From Plantibacter sp. ME-Dv--P-122b (lineage in GTDB: Bacteria > Actinomycetota > Actinomycetes > Actinomycetales > Microbacteriaceae), in contig NZ_JARVSC010000001.1 of NCBI RefSeq assembly GCF_030209375.1, positions 558,001 through 622,000 on the forward strand: a stretch of DNA of 64,000 nucleotides, in the 5' to 3' direction. The notes under the pieces were generated by a model. It was given only the letters and a program-made list of their open reading frames with translations. It ran no database searches and had not been told where the DNA came from. Every line of letters begins with the position of its first letter. Position 1 is the stretch's first letter. A program made the position numbers and the translations under genes. Positions 13,941-64,000 of the stretch are shown piece by piece.

Positions 13941-15316
13941 GCGAGACCCTCGAGCAGCGCGCCGCCGCCGCGCCGGACGGATCCGATCCGGTCCACCCGG
14001 CGTCGGTCGGCGCGCCTGCCGAGGCGGGCCCGGACGGCCCCGATGCGCACGCCGACGGTGCGCCGGCCCCCGCTCGACGGCCGAACCCGTTCCGCAGCGC
14101 GCTCGACGGCGTCGGTGCCGTCGTCGTGCCCTGGGCCAGGGTCGTCTGGTCCGCCGCGCAGCCCGTGCTCGCTGTGGTCAGCGGCCTCGGCTGGGTGGTG
14201 CTCGCGATCGGCGTCATCGCGACCGTCGCCGGCTTCATCCTGGGGTGGGCTGAGCTCGTCTTCCTCGGCTTCGTGCCGCTGGCCGCGTTGCTGGCCTCCG
14301 TCGCCTACCTCTTCGGGCGGTCGACCTTCCGCATCTCCATCCATCTGAACCCCAGCCGGGTCACCGTCGGGGAGCGCGCGATCGGGCAGGTCCTCATCGC
14401 CAACCCCGGTCACCGCGCCACGACGCCCACGCGCCTCGAGGTCCCCGTGGGCTACGGCCTCGCGGAGTTCGCGATCCCGGCGATCCCGAAGGACGGCGAG
14501 CACGAGGAACTGTTCGCCGTCCCGACGAACCGGCGAGCCGTCATCCCGGCCGGGCCCGCCGTGTCGGTCCGTGGCGACCAGCTCGGTCTGTTGCGCCGCG
14601 AGGTGCGCTGGACGGAACCGGTCGAGCTCTTCGTGCATCCCGAGACCACACGCCTCCACCCGACGGCCGCCGGTCTCATCCGCGACCTCGAGGGCCTCGT
14701 CACGAAGACCATCACGAACAACGACATCTCCTTCCACGCCCTCCGCGGGTACGTCCCCGGTGACGACCGCCGCTACATCCACTGGAAGTCCTCCGCGAAG
14801 ACGGGCCAGCTCATGGTGCGGCAGTTCGAGGAGACGCGGCGGTCCCAGCTCACCATGGTGATGACGACCGACTCCCGCTACTACGCCGACGACGAGGACG
14901 AGTTCGAGTTGGCGGTGTCGCTCACCGCGTCGATCGCGACCCAGGTGATCCTCGACCAGGTGCCGATCAGCGTCGTGACCGACCGGCTCGCGCTGCGGAC
15001 CCACACCGTGACCTCCTTCCTCGACGACAGTTGCCGGCTGCAGCTCGCCGAGGGCACCTTCGACACCCCGCGCACCTTCGCCCGGGAGACCACGAAGCGC
15101 CTCCCGGCACCGAGCGTCGTCATCATCGTCGCCGGTTCGCGACTCGAGGCACAGGAGTACCGGGGGATCCAACGCCTCTTCGGTCCCGACGTCAACGTGT
15201 TCGGCATCCGCGTCGAACGCGGTGCACGGGCCGGCATCAAGGATGTCGCCGGGATGAACGTCATGACGGTCGGGGCGTTGAGCGACCTCGCCAAGGTCAT
15301 GTCGAGGGCCCTGTGA
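13937..15316 (+). CDS. DUF58-domain membrane protein
   Basis: 459 residues. A disordered Ala/Pro-rich N-terminus of about 55 residues precedes two transmembrane helices near 75-140. The DUF58 signature (LRGYVPGDDRRYIHWK, then a QLMVRQFEETR stretch) lies near residues 265-300, followed by a vWA-like alpha/beta fold. The start overlaps the MoxR stop (ATGA) and the stop overlaps the next gene (GTGA), so all three are translationally coupled. Family members act with MoxR ATPases, and their exact biochemistry is unknown. Confidence 0.9.
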   Translation: MSETLEQRAAAAPDGSDPVHPASVGAPAEAGPDGPDAHADGAPAPARRPNPFRSALDGVGAVVVPWARVVWSAAQPVLAVVSGLGWVVLAIGVIATVAGFILGWAELVFLGFVPLAALLASVAYLFGRSTFRISIHLNPSRVTVGERAIGQVLIANPGHRATTPTRLEVPVGYGLAEFAIPAIPKDGEHEELFAVPTNRRAVIPAGPAVSVRGDQLGLLRREVRWTEPVELFVHPETTRLHPTAAGLIRDLEGLVTKTITNNDISFHALRGYVPGDDRRYIHWKSSAKTGQLMVRQFEETRRSQLTMVMTTDSRYYADDEDEFELAVSLTASIATQVILDQVPISVVTDRLALRTHTVTSFLDDSCRLQLAEGTFDTPRTFARETTKRLPAPSVVIIVAGSRLEAQEYRGIQRLFGPDVNVFGIRVERGARAGIKDVAGMNVMTVGALSDLAKVMSRAL

Positions 15317-38283: not shown

Positions 38284-38287
<4 letters not shown>

Positions 38288-38892
38288 GCGCGGCGTCCGG
38301 CAAGCCCCGTCTCCTCATCGTCGGTCCTCCGGGATCCGGCAAGGGCACCCAGGCGGCCTTCCTCGCGGAGCACTTCGACATCCCCGCGATCTCGACGGGC
38401 GACATCTTCCGCGCGAACATCAAGGAGGGTACGGCGCTCGGCAAGCAGGTCCAGGCGATCGTGAGCGAGGGCGGGTACGTCCCCGACTCCCTGACGAACG
38501 AGATCGTCCGCGACCGGCTCCACCAGCCCGACGCCGTCGAAGGGTTCCTGCTCGACGGGTACCCGCGGACCACCGACCAGGTCGTCGCTCTGGACGCACT
38601 GCTCGCTGAGAGCGACGCGAGCCTCGACGCCGTCGTGCAGCTGCAGGCCGACACGGAAGAGGTCGTCGCACGACTCCTCAAGCGTGCCGCCGAGCAGGGT
38701 CGCACCGACGACACGGAAGACGTCATCCGTCACCGGCTCGAGCTCTACGCGCACGAGACGGCTCCGCTGATCGAGGTCTTCACCGCCCGCGGGCTCGTCG
38801 TGGCCGTCGACGGTCTCGGCGAGGTGGACGAGGTCACCGCTCGGATCGACGCGGCCCTCGCTGCTCGAGGCATCGTCGTCCCGGCCGTCTGA
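38284..38892 (+). CDS. adk: Adenylate kinase
   Basis: 202 residues, TTG start overlapping the secY stop, with GAAGGG at 38271-38276. P-loop [13 protein letters not shown]-binding [13 protein letters not shown]-binding [10 protein letters not shown], and a short LID with [14 protein letters not shown]. All catalytic arginines and the P-loop Thr are present. Interconverts 2 ADP with ATP and AMP. Short-LID form as in actinobacteria. A diverged tandem copy follows. Confidence 0.96.
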
Positions 38893-38913
38893 CCCTCGGG
38901 CACGTCCATCACG

Positions 38914-39612
38914 GTGTTCCGGGAGTCGATCGACAGGACGCCTGAGCCCGTCCGTGTGATGACGGCGGGGGAGCCGGTCGCGGCGGGTCCCGTCAATAGG
39001 TCGCGCGCTGCGGCGGACAGGCCCCGCCTGCTCATCGTCGGTTCCCCGGGAACAGGGAAGGGCGCGACGGCAGCGCTCCTTGCCGAGCGCTTCGGTATCC
39101 CGGCGATCTCCTCGAGCGACATGTTCCGCGCGAGCGTCACGCGTGGCACCGACCTCGGGAAGCAGCTGCAGGCCATCGTCAACGAGGGCGGCGAGGTCCC
39201 GGGCCCGCTCACGGACGAGATCGTGCGCGAGCGGCTCCACCAGCCCGATGCCTCGGACGGTTTCGTCCTCGACGGGTACCCGCGGACGGCCGACCAGGTC
39301 GCCGTGCTCGACGCGCTACTGGCCGAGAGCGGTGCACGCCTCGACGCCGTCGTGCAGCTGCAGGCCGACACCGAGGCGGTCGTCGAGCGACTGCTCGAGC
39401 GTGCTCCCGTGAAGGCGCGCGCCGACGCCGCGGCCGCTGAGGTGATCCGCCTCCGGCTGACCCGATACGAGCAGGAGACCGCCCCGCTCATCGAGGCGTT
39501 CGCGGTTCGTGGGCTCCTGGTGACCGTCGACGGTCTCGGCGACGTCGCCGAGGTGACCGCGCAGATCGATGCCGCCCTCGCCGAGCGCGGCCTGAACGTC
39601 CTCACGGACTGA
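38914..39612 (+). CDS. Second adenylate kinase paralogue with map-derived N-terminus
   Basis: 232 residues from GTG 38914. ATG 38959 is an alternative and neither has a good ribosome site. Residues from about 37 on match the upstream adk: LLIVGSPGTGKGA, ISSSDMFRAS, DGYPRTADQV, and a final GDVAEVTAQIDAALAERG. Changes at key places: P-loop Thr to Ala, TGD to SSD, and the LID GRTDD to ARADA. The first ~20 residues (FRESIDRTPEPVRVM) instead resemble the start of the next gene, map (FRKSIYKTPDQIRAM), and the DNA before both starts is similar. It may be a weak or specialised nucleotide kinase. Confidence 0.9.
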   Translation: MFRESIDRTPEPVRVMTAGEPVAAGPVNRSRAAADRPRLLIVGSPGTGKGATAALLAERFGIPAISSSDMFRASVTRGTDLGKQLQAIVNEGGEVPGPLTDEIVRERLHQPDASDGFVLDGYPRTADQVAVLDALLAESGARLDAVVQLQADTEAVVERLLERAPVKARADAAAAEVIRLRLTRYEQETAPLIEAFAVRGLLVTVDGLGDVAEVTAQIDAALAERGLNVLTD

Positions 39613-60425: not shown

Positions 60426-61703
60426 ATGAGCGTCTTTTCGAAGGCCACGGCCGCTCGCTCCCGCCCACGTTCCATCGTTCTCGGTGGTATCGCACTGATC
60501 GGAGCCAGCGCGCTGGTTCTGAGCGGTTGCGCCTCGAGTGGTAGCGGCGACAGCGGCAGCAGCAGCAAGCCTGCTGGCGACCTGACCCTGAAGCTCGGCA
60601 CGGCGTTGCCGCAGACCGGTAACCTCGCGTTCCTCGGCCCGCCCGAGGAGGCCGGTGTCGGTCTCGCGGTCAAGGAGGTCAACGACGCCGACCTCGGCAT
60701 CAAGATCGACCTGACGCTCGGCGACTCGGGTGACTCCGACAACAAGGCGTACGCGACCGAGGTCCCCCGTCTGCTCTCCGAGGGCGTCACGGCCATCATC
60801 GGTGCAGCGTCCTCGGGTGTGTCGAAGCTCTTCATCGACGAAGTCACCGGCGCAGGCGTCATCCAGTTCTCCCCGGCGAACACCTCCGCGGACTTCACGA
60901 CGTGGGACGACAACGGTCTCTACTGGCGGACGGCGCCGTCCGACGTGCTGCAGGGCGAGGTCCTCGGGAACCTGATCGCGGAGGACGGCAACGCCACCCT
61001 CGGCATCATCTACCTGAACGACTCGTACGGCACCGGCCTCGCGAAGTTCACCAAGGAGGCGTTCGAGAGCGCCGGCGGTGAAGTGGTCGCCGAGCAGTCC
61101 TACAACACCGGTGACACCTCGTTCGACGCGCAGATCAGCGCGGTCAAGGCGGAGAACCCCGACGCGATCGCGATCATCGCGTTCGAGGAGACCAAGACGA
61201 TCGTCCCCGGTCTCGCCGGCTTCCCGTCGGACAAGCTCTACTTCGTCGACGGCAACCTCGCCGACTACAGCGCGGACTTCGCTCCGGGCACCCTGACGGG
61301 CGCCAAGGGCACGCTGCCCGGTCTCGACACCGCGAAGCTCGGTGACTTCACCGACCGCCTCCAGGCGTTCGTGAAGGACGAGGGTGGCGAGCCGCTGAAG
61401 GATTACAGCTACGCGGCTGAGTCGTACGACGCCGTCATCCTGCTCGCCCTCGCGGCGCTGCAGGCCGGTTCGACCGAGGGTGCCGACATGGCAGCCGAGC
61501 TCCAGTCCGTGTCCGGTGGCAAGGACAAGGGCGAGAAGGTGACCACCTTCGAAGAGGGTGCGAAGGCCATCGCCGACGGCAAGAAGATCGACTACGACGG
61601 CAACTCCGGTCCGATCACGTTCGATGAGAACGGTGACCCGACCGAGGCGACCATCGGTATCTACCAGTACGGTGACGACAACAAGTACACCCGCACCAAC
61701 TAG
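60426..61703 (+). CDS. Branched-chain amino-acid ABC transporter substrate-binding lipoprotein
   Basis: 425 residues, ATG with AAGGAG four bases before it. Signal peptide and lipobox LVLSGC (Cys about residue 35), then a Ser/Gly linker. Periplasmic-binding type 1 fold as in LivJ/LivK: LKLGTALPQTGNLAFLGPPEEAGVGLAVKEVND, VTAIIGAASSGVSKLF, VIQFSPANTSADFT, and IIYLNDSYGTGLAKF. The likely partner ATPase LivF is on the opposite strand 1.8 kb away. The ligand could be leucine-type or another amino acid or amide. Confidence 0.9.
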   Translation: MSVFSKATAARSRPRSIVLGGIALIGASALVLSGCASSGSGDSGSSSKPAGDLTLKLGTALPQTGNLAFLGPPEEAGVGLAVKEVNDADLGIKIDLTLGDSGDSDNKAYATEVPRLLSEGVTAIIGAASSGVSKLFIDEVTGAGVIQFSPANTSADFTTWDDNGLYWRTAPSDVLQGEVLGNLIAEDGNATLGIIYLNDSYGTGLAKFTKEAFESAGGEVVAEQSYNTGDTSFDAQISAVKAENPDAIAIIAFEETKTIVPGLAGFPSDKLYFVDGNLADYSADFAPGTLTGAKGTLPGLDTAKLGDFTDRLQAFVKDEGGEPLKDYSYAAESYDAVILLALAALQAGSTEGADMAAELQSVSGGKDKGEKVTTFEEGAKAIADGKKIDYDGNSGPITFDENGDPTEATIGIYQYGDDNKYTRTN

Positions 61704-61717
61704 TCGCCAGCGCGACT

Positions 61718-61750
61718 GACGAGGCCCCGGAGCGATCCGGGGCCTTCGTC
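61718..61750 (+). terminator. Terminator of the binding-protein gene
   Basis: GACGAGGCCCCGGA and TCCGGGGCCTTCGTC form a near-perfect GC-rich stem with a GCGA loop. Confidence 0.82.
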
Positions 61751-61798
61751 GTGCTCGCCCCCGACCCACCCCGAGTGTGGTGTGTCGTGTGTGGTGGT

Positions 61799-62061
61799 GC
61801 CAGCGCGGTGCGCTGACGCGAGCGCGGGTCCAGCGCGTGAGCGCGGGTCTCCGGAGACCCGCGCTCACGCGCCTGCCATGCGCTCACGCCGATTCCGACC
61901 CCATGCGGCTCAACGGGGCGCGCTCACGCCGGCGCACCGCGCTGACCATAGGGATGGGCTCCTGCCGGCGCACTGCGCTGACGGAGGGGGCGGTATGTTC
62001 CTGCCAGCGCACCGCGCTGACGGAGGGGGCGGCGTGTTCACGCCAGCGCACCGCGCTGGCA
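61799..62061. repeat. Left cluster of GC-rich palindromic repeats
   Basis: No gene fits this stretch. It holds five copies of a 19-base element like GCCAGCGCACCGCGCTGAC (one inverted at 61799-61817, then 61928, 61964, 62003, 62042), each with a CAGCGC/GCGCTG hairpin core. Several CGCTCACG boxes also occur, and a 40-base perfect palindrome at 61833-61872. The last three copies repeat every 39 bases with similar 20-base spacers, so it is a tandem array rather than a CRISPR. Confidence 0.8.
61833..61872. repeat. 40-base perfect palindrome
   Basis: GCGCGTGAGCGCGGGTCTCC (61833-61852) followed directly by its exact reverse complement (61853-61872). A two-mismatch twin lies at 63225-63264, on the other side of the nuclease gene. 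Confidence 0.9.
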
Positions 62062-62085
62062 GCAGCGACCAGTTGGGCGCCCGGG

Positions 62086-63030
62086 TCAGCGGAACGCGCG
62101 ATGCAGCCCTGCGCGTTCGAGTTTCGCAGCGAGCCGGCTCGGATGGACGAGGTCCTCCCAGGTGGCACGGACGACGGTGTACCCGAGCGCGCGCAGCCGG
62201 TCCTCCCGATGCTTCTCCGCCAGGACGATGTCGGCCACGTCCCGGCCCTGCGTGAACTCCTCTCGCACATATTTCTGGCGGCCGTCGAGTTCGAGGATGA
62301 TGCGTTCGTCCGGCCAGACCGCATCGACCACGCCGATCGGTCCTTCCGCGTCGGAGAACGCCTGCTGGAGCACCGGCAGGGCGAATCCGAGCTGCGCGAT
62401 CACGACCCGCATCTTCGATTCACCACCGTTCGCGGCGAGGGGGTCCGCGAATTCGATCGCGAAGCGCACCTGACGTCCTCCCCGTCTGCCCGGCAGGTCT
62501 CGGGCGAGCGAGCGGAGCGCCGTCTCGTCGGTGAGCTTGAGCCGGAGGGCTGCGTCAGCGACGGCCACGGCATCGTCGAGGCGGGCGATCCGCGCGAGAT
62601 CGACAACGGTCCGAGCCGGGTCCGTGACGGCGAGCCCGTACCGCATCCGTCGGGCGACCGAGCCCTGCGTCGTGTGGCGGATGATGCCGGGTGCCGAACG
62701 CCCTCCGCGATCACCGCTCGTCAGCGTGTGCACCTCGGGAGGCCACGGGCCAACGATCGGGAGTCCCCACAATCGCGCCGCCGAGTAGTGGCTGAACACT
62801 GCGTCCTTCCGCAGCGCGACGGCCGCCGCATCGATCCGGACGCGGTAGCGGTCATCGGGGGACAGGGAACTCCAGATCGGTTCAGGGACGTAGATGCCCT
62901 TCCGCAGACGCACCAGATCGCCGTCGCGGTGGGCGGCGCTCACCAGACGCTCGGCACCGACCCGACGTGCGTCGCGGACGAGCAGGAGTCCGTTCGGGCG
63001 GAGGAGCAGGTTCAGATCGAAGGATTCCAT
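62086..63030 (-). CDS. AbiEi-like HTH protein with DUF559/Vsr-type nuclease domain
   Basis: 314 residues from ATG 63030. Open frame continues upstream but without conserved sequence. N-terminal winged-HTH like AbiEi antitoxins (about 1-60, HRDGDLVRLRKGIYV), a middle domain with VFSHYSAARLWGLP and ARTVVDLAR, and a C-terminal restriction-endonuclease-like domain near 225-300. That domain carries VVDAVWPDERIILELDGRQK, with the D...ExDGxxK active-site pattern of DUF559/Vsr nucleases, then KHREDRLRALGYTVVRATWEDL. Such solitary proteins are common in actinobacteria with no proven role. Bracketed by palindromic repeats on both sides. Confidence 0.85.
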   Translation of the reverse strand: MESFDLNLLLRPNGLLLVRDARRVGAERLVSAAHRDGDLVRLRKGIYVPEPIWSSLSPDDRYRVRIDAAAVALRKDAVFSHYSAARLWGLPIVGPWPPEVHTLTSGDRGGRSAPGIIRHTTQGSVARRMRYGLAVTDPARTVVDLARIARLDDAVAVADAALRLKLTDETALRSLARDLPGRRGGRQVRFAIEFADPLAANGGESKMRVVIAQLGFALPVLQQAFSDAEGPIGVVDAVWPDERIILELDGRQKYVREEFTQGRDVADIVLAEKHREDRLRALGYTVVRATWEDLVHPSRLAAKLERAGLHRAFR

Positions 63031-63128
63031 CGACTCACCGTGCCCGTTCCCCTCGCCAGCACCTCGTGTCTTGGAAGAGATGTGGAGAACTCCTCCCGTC
63101 CGGCCTGCGGTGGAGCGAGGGTGAAATG

Positions 63129-63298
63129 GTGCCCAGCGCGGTGCGCTGACGCCAGCGCGGGTCGTCCCCCTCGGCGCGGGTCGCTGTGCCACGGGGGCGG
63201 TGATTCGGCGTGAGCGCGGCCCCAGCGCGTGAGCGCGCGCCTCCGGAGACCCGCGCTCACGCGCCAGGGCCGCGCTCACGTCAGCGCACCGCGCTGGC
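63129..63298. repeat. Right cluster of GC-rich palindromic repeats
   Basis: Contains the same units as the left cluster: CAGCGCGGTGCGCTGAC at 63134-63150 followed by CGCCAGCGCGGGTC (direct repeat of 61801-61830), a near-palindrome at 63225-63264, CGCTCACG boxes, and GTCAGCGCACCGCGCTGGC at 63280-63298 in the opposite orientation to the first copy. No coding sequence is convincing here. Confidence 0.8.
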
Positions 63299-63319
63299 GA
63301 ACACCGGAAGGGGGGAATG

Positions 63320-63508: not shown

Positions 63509-64000
63509 TCAGTCCTCGTCCTGGCCGAGCGTGCCCAGGTAGAGGCCGATCACCTTGTCATCCGAGAGGAGCTCGCGGCCCGTCCCGGTGTAGGCGTCAC
63601 GACCCTGGTCGAGCACGTATCCGCGGTCGCAGATCTGCAGACAGCGACGCGCGTTCTGCTCCACCATGATCGTGGTGACGCCGGCTTTGTTGATGTCCGA
63701 GACGCGGATGAACGCGTCGTCCTGTCGGACCGGCGACAATCCCGCGGACGGCTCGTCGAGGAGCAGCACGTGCGGATCCATCATCAGGGCCCGCGACATC
63801 GCGACCATCTGGCGCTCACCACCCGACAACGAACCGGCGCGCTGCTTGAGCCGCTTCCCGAGTTCGCTGAAGATCCCGGTGACGAACTCGAGGCGCTCGT
63901 CGTACTGCTTCGGCTTCTGGAACAGCCCCATCTTGAGGTTGTCCTCGATGGTGAGGCTCGGGAACACGTTGTTGGTCTGCGGGACGAACCCGACGCCGCG
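63509..64000 (-). CDS. livF: Branched-chain amino-acid ABC transporter ATP-binding protein (LivF-type), 5' end cut
   Basis: The frame is open to the window edge. The visible 163 residues are the C-terminal two thirds. Q-loop VPQTNNVFPSLTIEDNL, ABC signature SLSGGERQMVAMSRALM, Walker B HVLLLDEPSAGLSP, switch His replaced by Gln in MVEQNARRCL as is usual for LivF, and YVLDQG. The Walker A lies outside. Probably works with the binding lipoprotein at 60.4 kb and with livHMG genes beyond the window. Confidence 0.9.
   Translation of the reverse strand, partial: RGVGFVPQTNNVFPSLTIEDNLKMGLFQKPKQYDERLEFVTGIFSELGKRLKQRAGSLSGGERQMVAMSRALMMDPHVLLLDEPSAGLSPVRQDDAFIRVSDINKAGVTTIMVEQNARRCLQICDRGYVLDQGRDAYTGTGRELLSDDKVIGLYLGTLGQDED

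Follow-up and report, generated by a model that had tools for sequence, protein, structure and literature searches.

The DNA analysed here, referred to as the window, is a stretch of 64,000 nucleotides from Plantibacter sp. ME-Dv--P-122b. Towards its right-hand end, a solitary nuclease gene sits between two liv genes, with palindromic elements on both sides (Table 1). The ORF list gives a longer frame of 438 aa for this gene, which takes an upstream start and crosses the right-hand repeats. The livF-like frame continues past the end of the window and is 258 aa long at locus L058. A hairpin-like stretch, read by eye, lies at about 61724-61745, between the livK-like gene and the left element. 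The original prediction had offered a solitary defence island as one reading. We saw nothing in support of it: the gene stands alone, and the neighbouring frames in the window's ORF list are the liv genes and overlapping ones, none of them AbiEii-like.

Table 1. Features of the nuclease locus, in window positions
Feature	Position	Strand	Basis or remark
Left neighbour, livK-like substrate-binding protein	60426-61703	+	Recognised by eye from translation
Left palindromic element cluster	61796-62064		Repeat comparison
28-nt perfect palindrome GAGCGCGGGTCTCCGGAGACCCGCGCTC at left axis	61839-61866		2-mismatch copy at 63231-63258; none in shuffles
Solitary nuclease gene, 314 aa	62086-63030	-	Translated frame
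Right palindromic element	63129-63300		Repeat comparison
Right neighbour, livF-like ATPase	63509-63967	-	Recognised by eye from translation

Against Pfam, the window protein matched only AbiEi_4 (E 0.012) and DUF559 (E 0.016), both below threshold; its DUF559 score of 15.5 bits does not reach the curated cut-off of 20.6 bits. A PADLOC AbiEi model covers residues 14-181 with E 2.8e-13. We aligned 61 homologues, made up of 60 loci from 97 extracted proteins and the window protein, which stands for L001. Left out of the alignment are frames that were wrong or incomplete, including L001, L002, L070, L072, L078, L084, L088, L112, L121, L123, L125, L132, L192 and L201; the other omissions are near-duplicates or loci that were not chosen. 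The two best PADLOC AbiEi models each hit 54 of the 61 homologues, and PADLOC mREase_II also matched three. At E<=0.01, Pfam AbiEi_4 matches 25 of the 61, the window protein not included, while DUF559 (PF04480) and MTES_1575 (PF18741) match five each. NCBIfam gave a single match, antiphage_ProA (E 0.0057). E204, D236 and E247 are invariant in the alignment, and D249, G250 and K253 are nearly invariant. E204, D236, E247, D249 and K253 are probably the active-site residues of a PD-(D/E)XK-type nuclease.

The predicted model of the C-terminal 120 residues has a pLDDT of 82. When it was compared with the PDB using Foldseek, the best match was the Vsr endonuclease 1vsr (E 0.03, probability 0.99, TM 0.49), and the catalytic domain of the homing endonuclease I-Bth0305I (3r3p) was among the next (E 0.076, probability 0.96). 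Further down the list is 3hrl (E 0.48), to which there is also a weak sequence-profile match (E 0.22). No PDB match of this model falls below E 0.001, and some mitochondrial ribosome proteins score alike and are among the first matches. The whole-protein model (pLDDT 45) was too poor for a structure search. Judged by profile matches and a predicted fold, the protein looks like an AbiEi-like winged helix-turn-helix (wHTH) joined to a C-terminal Vsr-like or DUF559-type (MTES_1575-type) domain, and it is by this resemblance that we call it a nuclease.

Both elements are built from similar boxes. In the left cluster, the outer 15-mer hairpin box is at 61801 on the plus strand, reverse boxes follow at 61930, 61966, 62005 and 62044, and the central palindrome (approximately 61817-61888) has CTCCGGAG as its axis. 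The right element has outer boxes at 63134 (plus) and 63282 (minus) and a central palindrome at 63197-63292 about the same axis. Exact copies of CAGCGCGGTGCGCTG are found at 61801, 62005, 62044, 63134 and 63282; the copies at 61930 and 61966 are weaker. Allowing up to two mismatches, CAGCGCGGTGCGCTG has nine sites in the window compared with a mean of 1.0 in shuffles; two of the nine are far off, at 14596 and 47714. CGTGAGCGCGG has five copies, spread over both sides of the nuclease gene. Aligned with each other, the two clusters match over 84 nt at 82% in direct orientation and over 146 nt at 77% in inverted orientation. The repeat counts against shuffles and the cluster-to-cluster alignment bear out the prediction that the gene lies between two clusters sharing repeat units: the repeats are real and beyond chance.

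We then looked for the window repeat, here called family A, in other places. Its 15-mer occurs in 75 exact copies in the same genome, where a reversed control has 0, and in all seven Plantibacter genomes, with 30-76 copies each. In 293 other Microbacteriaceae, the 16-mer formed by adding the final A occurs at most once per genome, and four genomes have one copy. The A repeat is therefore a genus-specific dispersed family. In 27 stretches of the same genome, chosen for holding the exact 15-mer, we counted 43 A clusters. The elements are head-on arrays of similar boxes about the CTCCGGAG axis. In these stretches and those of a second Plantibacter genome (G001), 71 of 76 outer-box distances are 89-90, 109-110, 129 or 148-150, in steps of about 19.5. 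Just one of the 27 stretches holds a DUF559/AbiEi homologue (E 1e-8, four query proteins), so the clusters are not peculiar to the window nuclease. The nine other sandwiches of A elements that we looked at hold one or a few ordinary genes. Taken alone, a nuclease in one of 27 stretches together with sandwiched ordinary genes would read as coincidence.

Both flanks of 37 of the 43 A clusters are present in a G001 stretch, and 35 of these 37 have an element there, often of changed length, a figure that overstates conservation because the G001 stretches were picked for elements. With that bias, A elements turn over slowly. Neither of the two element-free sites is a clean insertion: in one the element has been deleted except for part of its left arm, and the other aligned poorly. 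No empty site was found at the window locus among the seven Plantibacter genomes. The A repeat was rejected as a companion of the paralogues: its 15-mer, at 0-1 mismatch, is absent within about 1.5 kb on each side of L002-L004, L075 and L077-L089, and L081, L082 and L088 each have a single site with two mismatches. (L076 duplicates L074 in the locus list, and L065-L067 duplicate G003, G002 and G006.)

Several further observations concern the A elements. They are unevenly distributed on the G001 chromosome, where clusters leave a gap of 1.32 Mb (2.01-3.33 Mb) that is matched in 7 of 20000 uniform draws of 35 positions. In G001, a gene for a putative lipoprotein of 227 aa lies between two near-identical direct A elements (L095 3069-4061); G000, the genome of the window, has a single A element at the same place, without the lipoprotein gene (L048 4950-5110). 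At another site, small putative lipoprotein genes beside an A element are strongly diverged between sister species (L046 5240-6250 and L094 3420-4350). The window-type nuclease is internally deleted in G005 (L074; G005:C1:1253260-1253719), and elements persist on both sides.

Three homologues whose flanks we read each lay between matched palindromes, whose sequence differed from homologue to homologue. We then compared flanks at loci picked without regard to repeats. The upstream flank was aligned to the downstream flank by blastn, using up to 700 bases plus 100 bases of gene end (800-base flanks in the phylum sample, 700 in the family controls), with a threshold of 45 bits; palindromicity was not required in the counts. 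Among the top family homologues outside Plantibacter (L112-L135, which include several loci per genus and seven at one syntenic place), 21 of 24 reached 45 bits. In 20 further family homologues, one per genus, 12 reached 45 bits and 15 reached 38 bits; eight of these genera also occur in the first set. In a phylum sample of 296 genomes, 31 had a homologue, and we read 29 loci (L180-L208) in addition to the window gene. Matched flanks at 45 bits or more were found at 18 of the 29, including 17 of the 27 outside Microbacteriaceae, in ten other families. Plantibacter paralogue loci gave 11 of 17, but from few orthologous groups, and the groups L004/L083/L089 (not L088) and L081/L082/L084 score just 28-41 bits.

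Control genes seldom have matched flanks. Within the same family stretches, 3 of 145 reached 45 bits and 5 of 145 reached 38 bits. Elsewhere, 2 of 52 reached 45 bits, both from a tandem adk pair whose flanks match because the tandem copies match each other. Pooled, the two control sets, drawn from a rough, GC3-weighted ORF caller, give 5 of 197. (In the window, two adenylate-kinase-like frames stand in tandem at 38284-39612, an adk duplication recognised by eye.) Against the controls, Fisher P is about 1e-21 for 21/24, 9e-11 for 12/20 and 5e-15 for 18/29, from loci that are not fully independent. When flanks of different loci were paired, 12 of 200 mismatched pairs reached 45 bits; nine of these are long matches above 360 bits, eight of which join syntenic loci. 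Eight of the 20 and 11 of the 29 loci have no flank match at 45 bits; at least L141 and L201 are at contig ends, and some others are not. Self-complementarity of at least 30 nt is present in both copies in 52 of 57 rows, one of which (L201) is spurious. These data demonstrate a strong association between nuclease and repeats: about 35 genera have a bracketed member of this one nuclease family, and the repeats are mostly unrelated. The expectation that repeats should recur around other DUF559 homologues thus holds for the arrangement, since other nucleases have repeats of their own, and not for the A sequence, which is absent from them.

The extent to which repeats differ between nuclease lineages is clear from pairwise comparison. 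Element sequence is common, at 38 bits or more, to only 5 of 1596 pairs of loci with matched elements. (Of the 57 elements, 56 are real and one is the spurious contig-end L201; 56 of the 1596 pairs involve L201, none of them among the five.) In two of the five pairs the proteins are 95% and 70% identical; in the other three the frames were wrong and gave no identity. Seven loci from four genera occupy one place that is syntenic on both sides of the gene, with flanks aligning at 74-88%. By eye, a glycerol-3-phosphate dehydrogenase-like gene lies on one side and a TrkA-C/antiporter-like pair on the other. At this place the repeats differ between genera, indicating that the repeat sequence is replaced over time even as the gene remains in place.

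Repeats of other nucleases are also dispersed. The L002 repeat is found at 16 places in its own genome, two of which are the flanks of the L002 nuclease. Repeats of the L002 type give 21-26 strand-wise matches in each of G000-G004, all five of which have that nuclease; G005 and G006 both have 0 matches, and no L002-type homologue was found in either. For the L003-type repeat, each of G000-G004 has 19-30 strand-wise matches, and G005 and G006 have none. Its nuclease was seen in G000-G003; G004 keeps the repeats, and the nuclease was not found there. This co-occurrence rests on one split, G005/G006 versus the rest, and so perhaps on one event. In G190, from another genus, the nuclease's repeat occurs at about 40 places (92 strand-wise matches). 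We read 12 of these loci: two are the nuclease flanks, and ten, at nine places, have no nuclease within 1.5 kb. Among 12 family stretches, each 19 kb long, four hold an extra copy outside the nuclease locus; the G190 stretch is one of the four. For the L004-type repeat, no copy beyond its own locus was found in 0.44 Mb of own-genome stretches plus the window. Dispersed solo copies thus exist in four families, three in Plantibacter and one in another genus.

Comparison of the Plantibacter genomes also revealed presence and absence. At the L003 locus, G004 has one solo element where G000 has element, nuclease and element, and the flanks are continuous. The L002 locus in G005 and G006 is without element or nuclease and has a terminator-like hairpin between the neighbouring genes (L226 13310-13540, L229 7840-8075). 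At L002-type sites, the composite seems to have replaced or displaced this hairpin. An L002-family site that is occupied in G000 was found vacant in G001, and its flanks are changed. No clean target-site duplication was found at the element-free or empty sites that we compared. Elements and nuclease have been gained or lost over species time, a statement that implies neither direction nor mechanism. A tolerated insertion between convergent genes, as originally proposed, fits the L002-type locus, where two sister species have an empty site; at the window locus none of the seven genomes showed one.

In Microbacteriaceae, most elements have an internal pitch of 19 nt. Self-match at offset 19 has a mean z of 2.15, and other offsets from 8 to 35 lie between about -0.5 and 0.5. 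Of the 37 Microbacteriaceae loci, 23 have z>2 at 19 nt in the upstream element and 20 in the downstream element; a recount without L201 gave 23/37 and 21/37, since shuffles vary slightly. Outside this family the pitch is weak, at 3/18 and 5/18 with one spurious row, or 4/17 and 6/17 on recount. L135 and L121 were left out of the count as near-copies. Only 6 of 341 control palindromes have z>2. These came from whole stretches and are probably mostly coding, with a three-base rhythm; other offsets within the elements therefore control better for the pitch. When whole flanks were scanned (159 flanks, 80 loci), 19 was the commonest best offset (28.3/159), with only 19% above z 2. Examples that show the pitch have a repeated core of about 8-11 nt. 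The AbiEi protein of Streptococcus agalactiae binds to a pair of inverted 23-bp boxes with an 11-bp core, and it is through these paired boxes that it represses its promoter; the study predicts that each box takes one monomer (PMC3985639). By analogy with AbiEi, the box pitch fits a protein that would read one box per 19 bp.

We compared these features with known systems. RAYT/REP units (REPtrons) also have a solitary gene between palindromic repeats and many dispersed solo copies; their enzyme lineages have their own repeat, several pairs can occur in a genome and position is kept within a genus (PMC3116915, PMC3733652). Likewise, the flanking palindromes here are dispersed, with the exception of the L004 family in the part searched. 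The REP/RAYT-like arrangement that had been proposed was thus right in outline: many homologous nucleases across the phylum stand between matched repeats, most of them palindromic, and in the four families tested these repeats are dispersed. However, the enzyme here is a putative AbiEi-HTH plus Vsr-like nuclease, whereas RAYT is a Y1/HUH transposase. The elements here are mostly palindromes of 60-170 bp with a 19-nt pitch in Microbacteriaceae, unlike REPs, and no GTAG/GGAG tag at the hairpin foot was noticed on reading individual elements. Identity with RAYT was rejected: PF01797 (Y1_Tnp) is absent from the Plantibacter genome and present in 5 of 14 control genomes.

Two features resemble AbiE type IV toxin-antitoxin systems (PMC3985639): the N-terminal AbiEi-like wHTH, and the inverted boxes that lie in pairs next to the gene and have a core of about 11 bp. 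In contrast to AbiE, the protein here has a putative C-terminal nuclease domain and no AbiEii-like partner in the ORF list, and the boxes are on both sides of the gene and dispersed. The conserved D...ExDG..K pattern of the C-terminal domain recalls DUF559, MTES_1575, Vsr and I-Bth0305I, but the window protein is below the Pfam curated cut-offs and its Foldseek matches have E 0.03 and above. The family descriptions shown for DUF559 and MTES_1575 mention no repeat association. A search of the open-access literature, which covered few subscription journals and preprints, found no description of a DUF559/AbiEi nuclease joined to dispersed palindromes.

We think it somewhat probable that repeat and nuclease form a pair organised like REP and RAYT with an unrelated enzyme, and that the nuclease maintains or spreads the repeats. 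The AbiEi-like wHTH would bind the boxes, one monomer per roughly 19-bp box, and the nuclease domain would cut within or next to the palindrome or its cruciform. Repair may then copy the element into other sites, with or without the nuclease between two elements, as homing-like or copy-based spreading, and recombination between two flanking copies would leave a solo element. A wider reading is that this is widespread selfish DNA in Actinomycetota, in which a Vsr-like nuclease with an AbiEi-type DNA-reading domain coevolves with its own box palindromes and distributes solo copies over the genome, with its own gene positioned between two palindromes. That reading, taken as a whole, is in our judgement evenly poised between right and wrong.

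The main rival treats the elements as AbiEi-type operators. The nuclease would be a self-repressing toxin or restriction-like defence enzyme with the upstream copy as its operator; downstream and dispersed copies would titrate it or regulate other genes, and the repeats would multiply by ordinary recombination. This agrees with the frequent PADLOC AbiEi matches among homologues, with the paired-box repression of AbiEi (PMC3985639) and with the palindromic boxes just upstream of the nuclease gene. It leaves unexplained why most homologues have a matched copy downstream, why a genome holds tens of copies and why sequences differ at one syntenic locus. We consider it unlikely as the explanation, and it could be partly true as well. 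Alternatively, the nuclease is a passenger, and the elements are miniature mobile DNA moved by another enzyme, with sandwiched genes carried or lost by recombination. We regard this as improbable, since the same nuclease family is bracketed in so many genera, mostly by unrelated repeats, against so few control genes; it would nevertheless account for the other genes sandwiched between A elements, for the putative lipoprotein gene and one element copy that are present in G001 and absent from G000, and for the 26 of 27 A-cluster stretches without such a nuclease.

The palindromes could also be bidirectional terminators or nucleoid-binding sites whose two-sided match reflects composition or local duplication only. 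The rarity of matches between mismatched flanks, the rarity of a 19-nt pitch in control palindromes and the genus-specificity of family A make this very improbable, even though the three elements that we folded are very stable hairpins as RNA (-48 to -85 kcal/mol), the empty L002 site holds a terminator-like hairpin and A clusters are unevenly spread in G001. Chance, or a peculiarity of the window locus alone, has only the small size of some subgroups in its favour; three samples differ from the controls at a Fisher P of 1e-10 or lower, and we count it as refuted.

The preferred reading, a nuclease paired with its own palindromes, bears on a wider problem. Many bacterial genomes hold dispersed palindromes without a known enzyme, such as the CGTC-tagged REPs, which have no known RAYT (PMC3733652). 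The elements here resemble these in being dispersed palindromes lacking a RAYT, an open problem on which this system may bear, and the nuclease family is a candidate enzyme in actinobacteria. Bracketing in about 35 genera provides a large natural set of enzyme-site pairs, HTH against box sequence, from which recognition rules may be worked out. Solitary AbiEi/DUF559 genes, now listed as defence genes or as genes of unknown function, gain a testable function, with protein binding at a 19-bp pitch as a prediction. If the pairing is as we propose, the box pitch would be fixed by the protein while the box letters are free to change, and the REP/RAYT way of life would have arisen a second time, independently, from a restriction- or homing-type enzyme.
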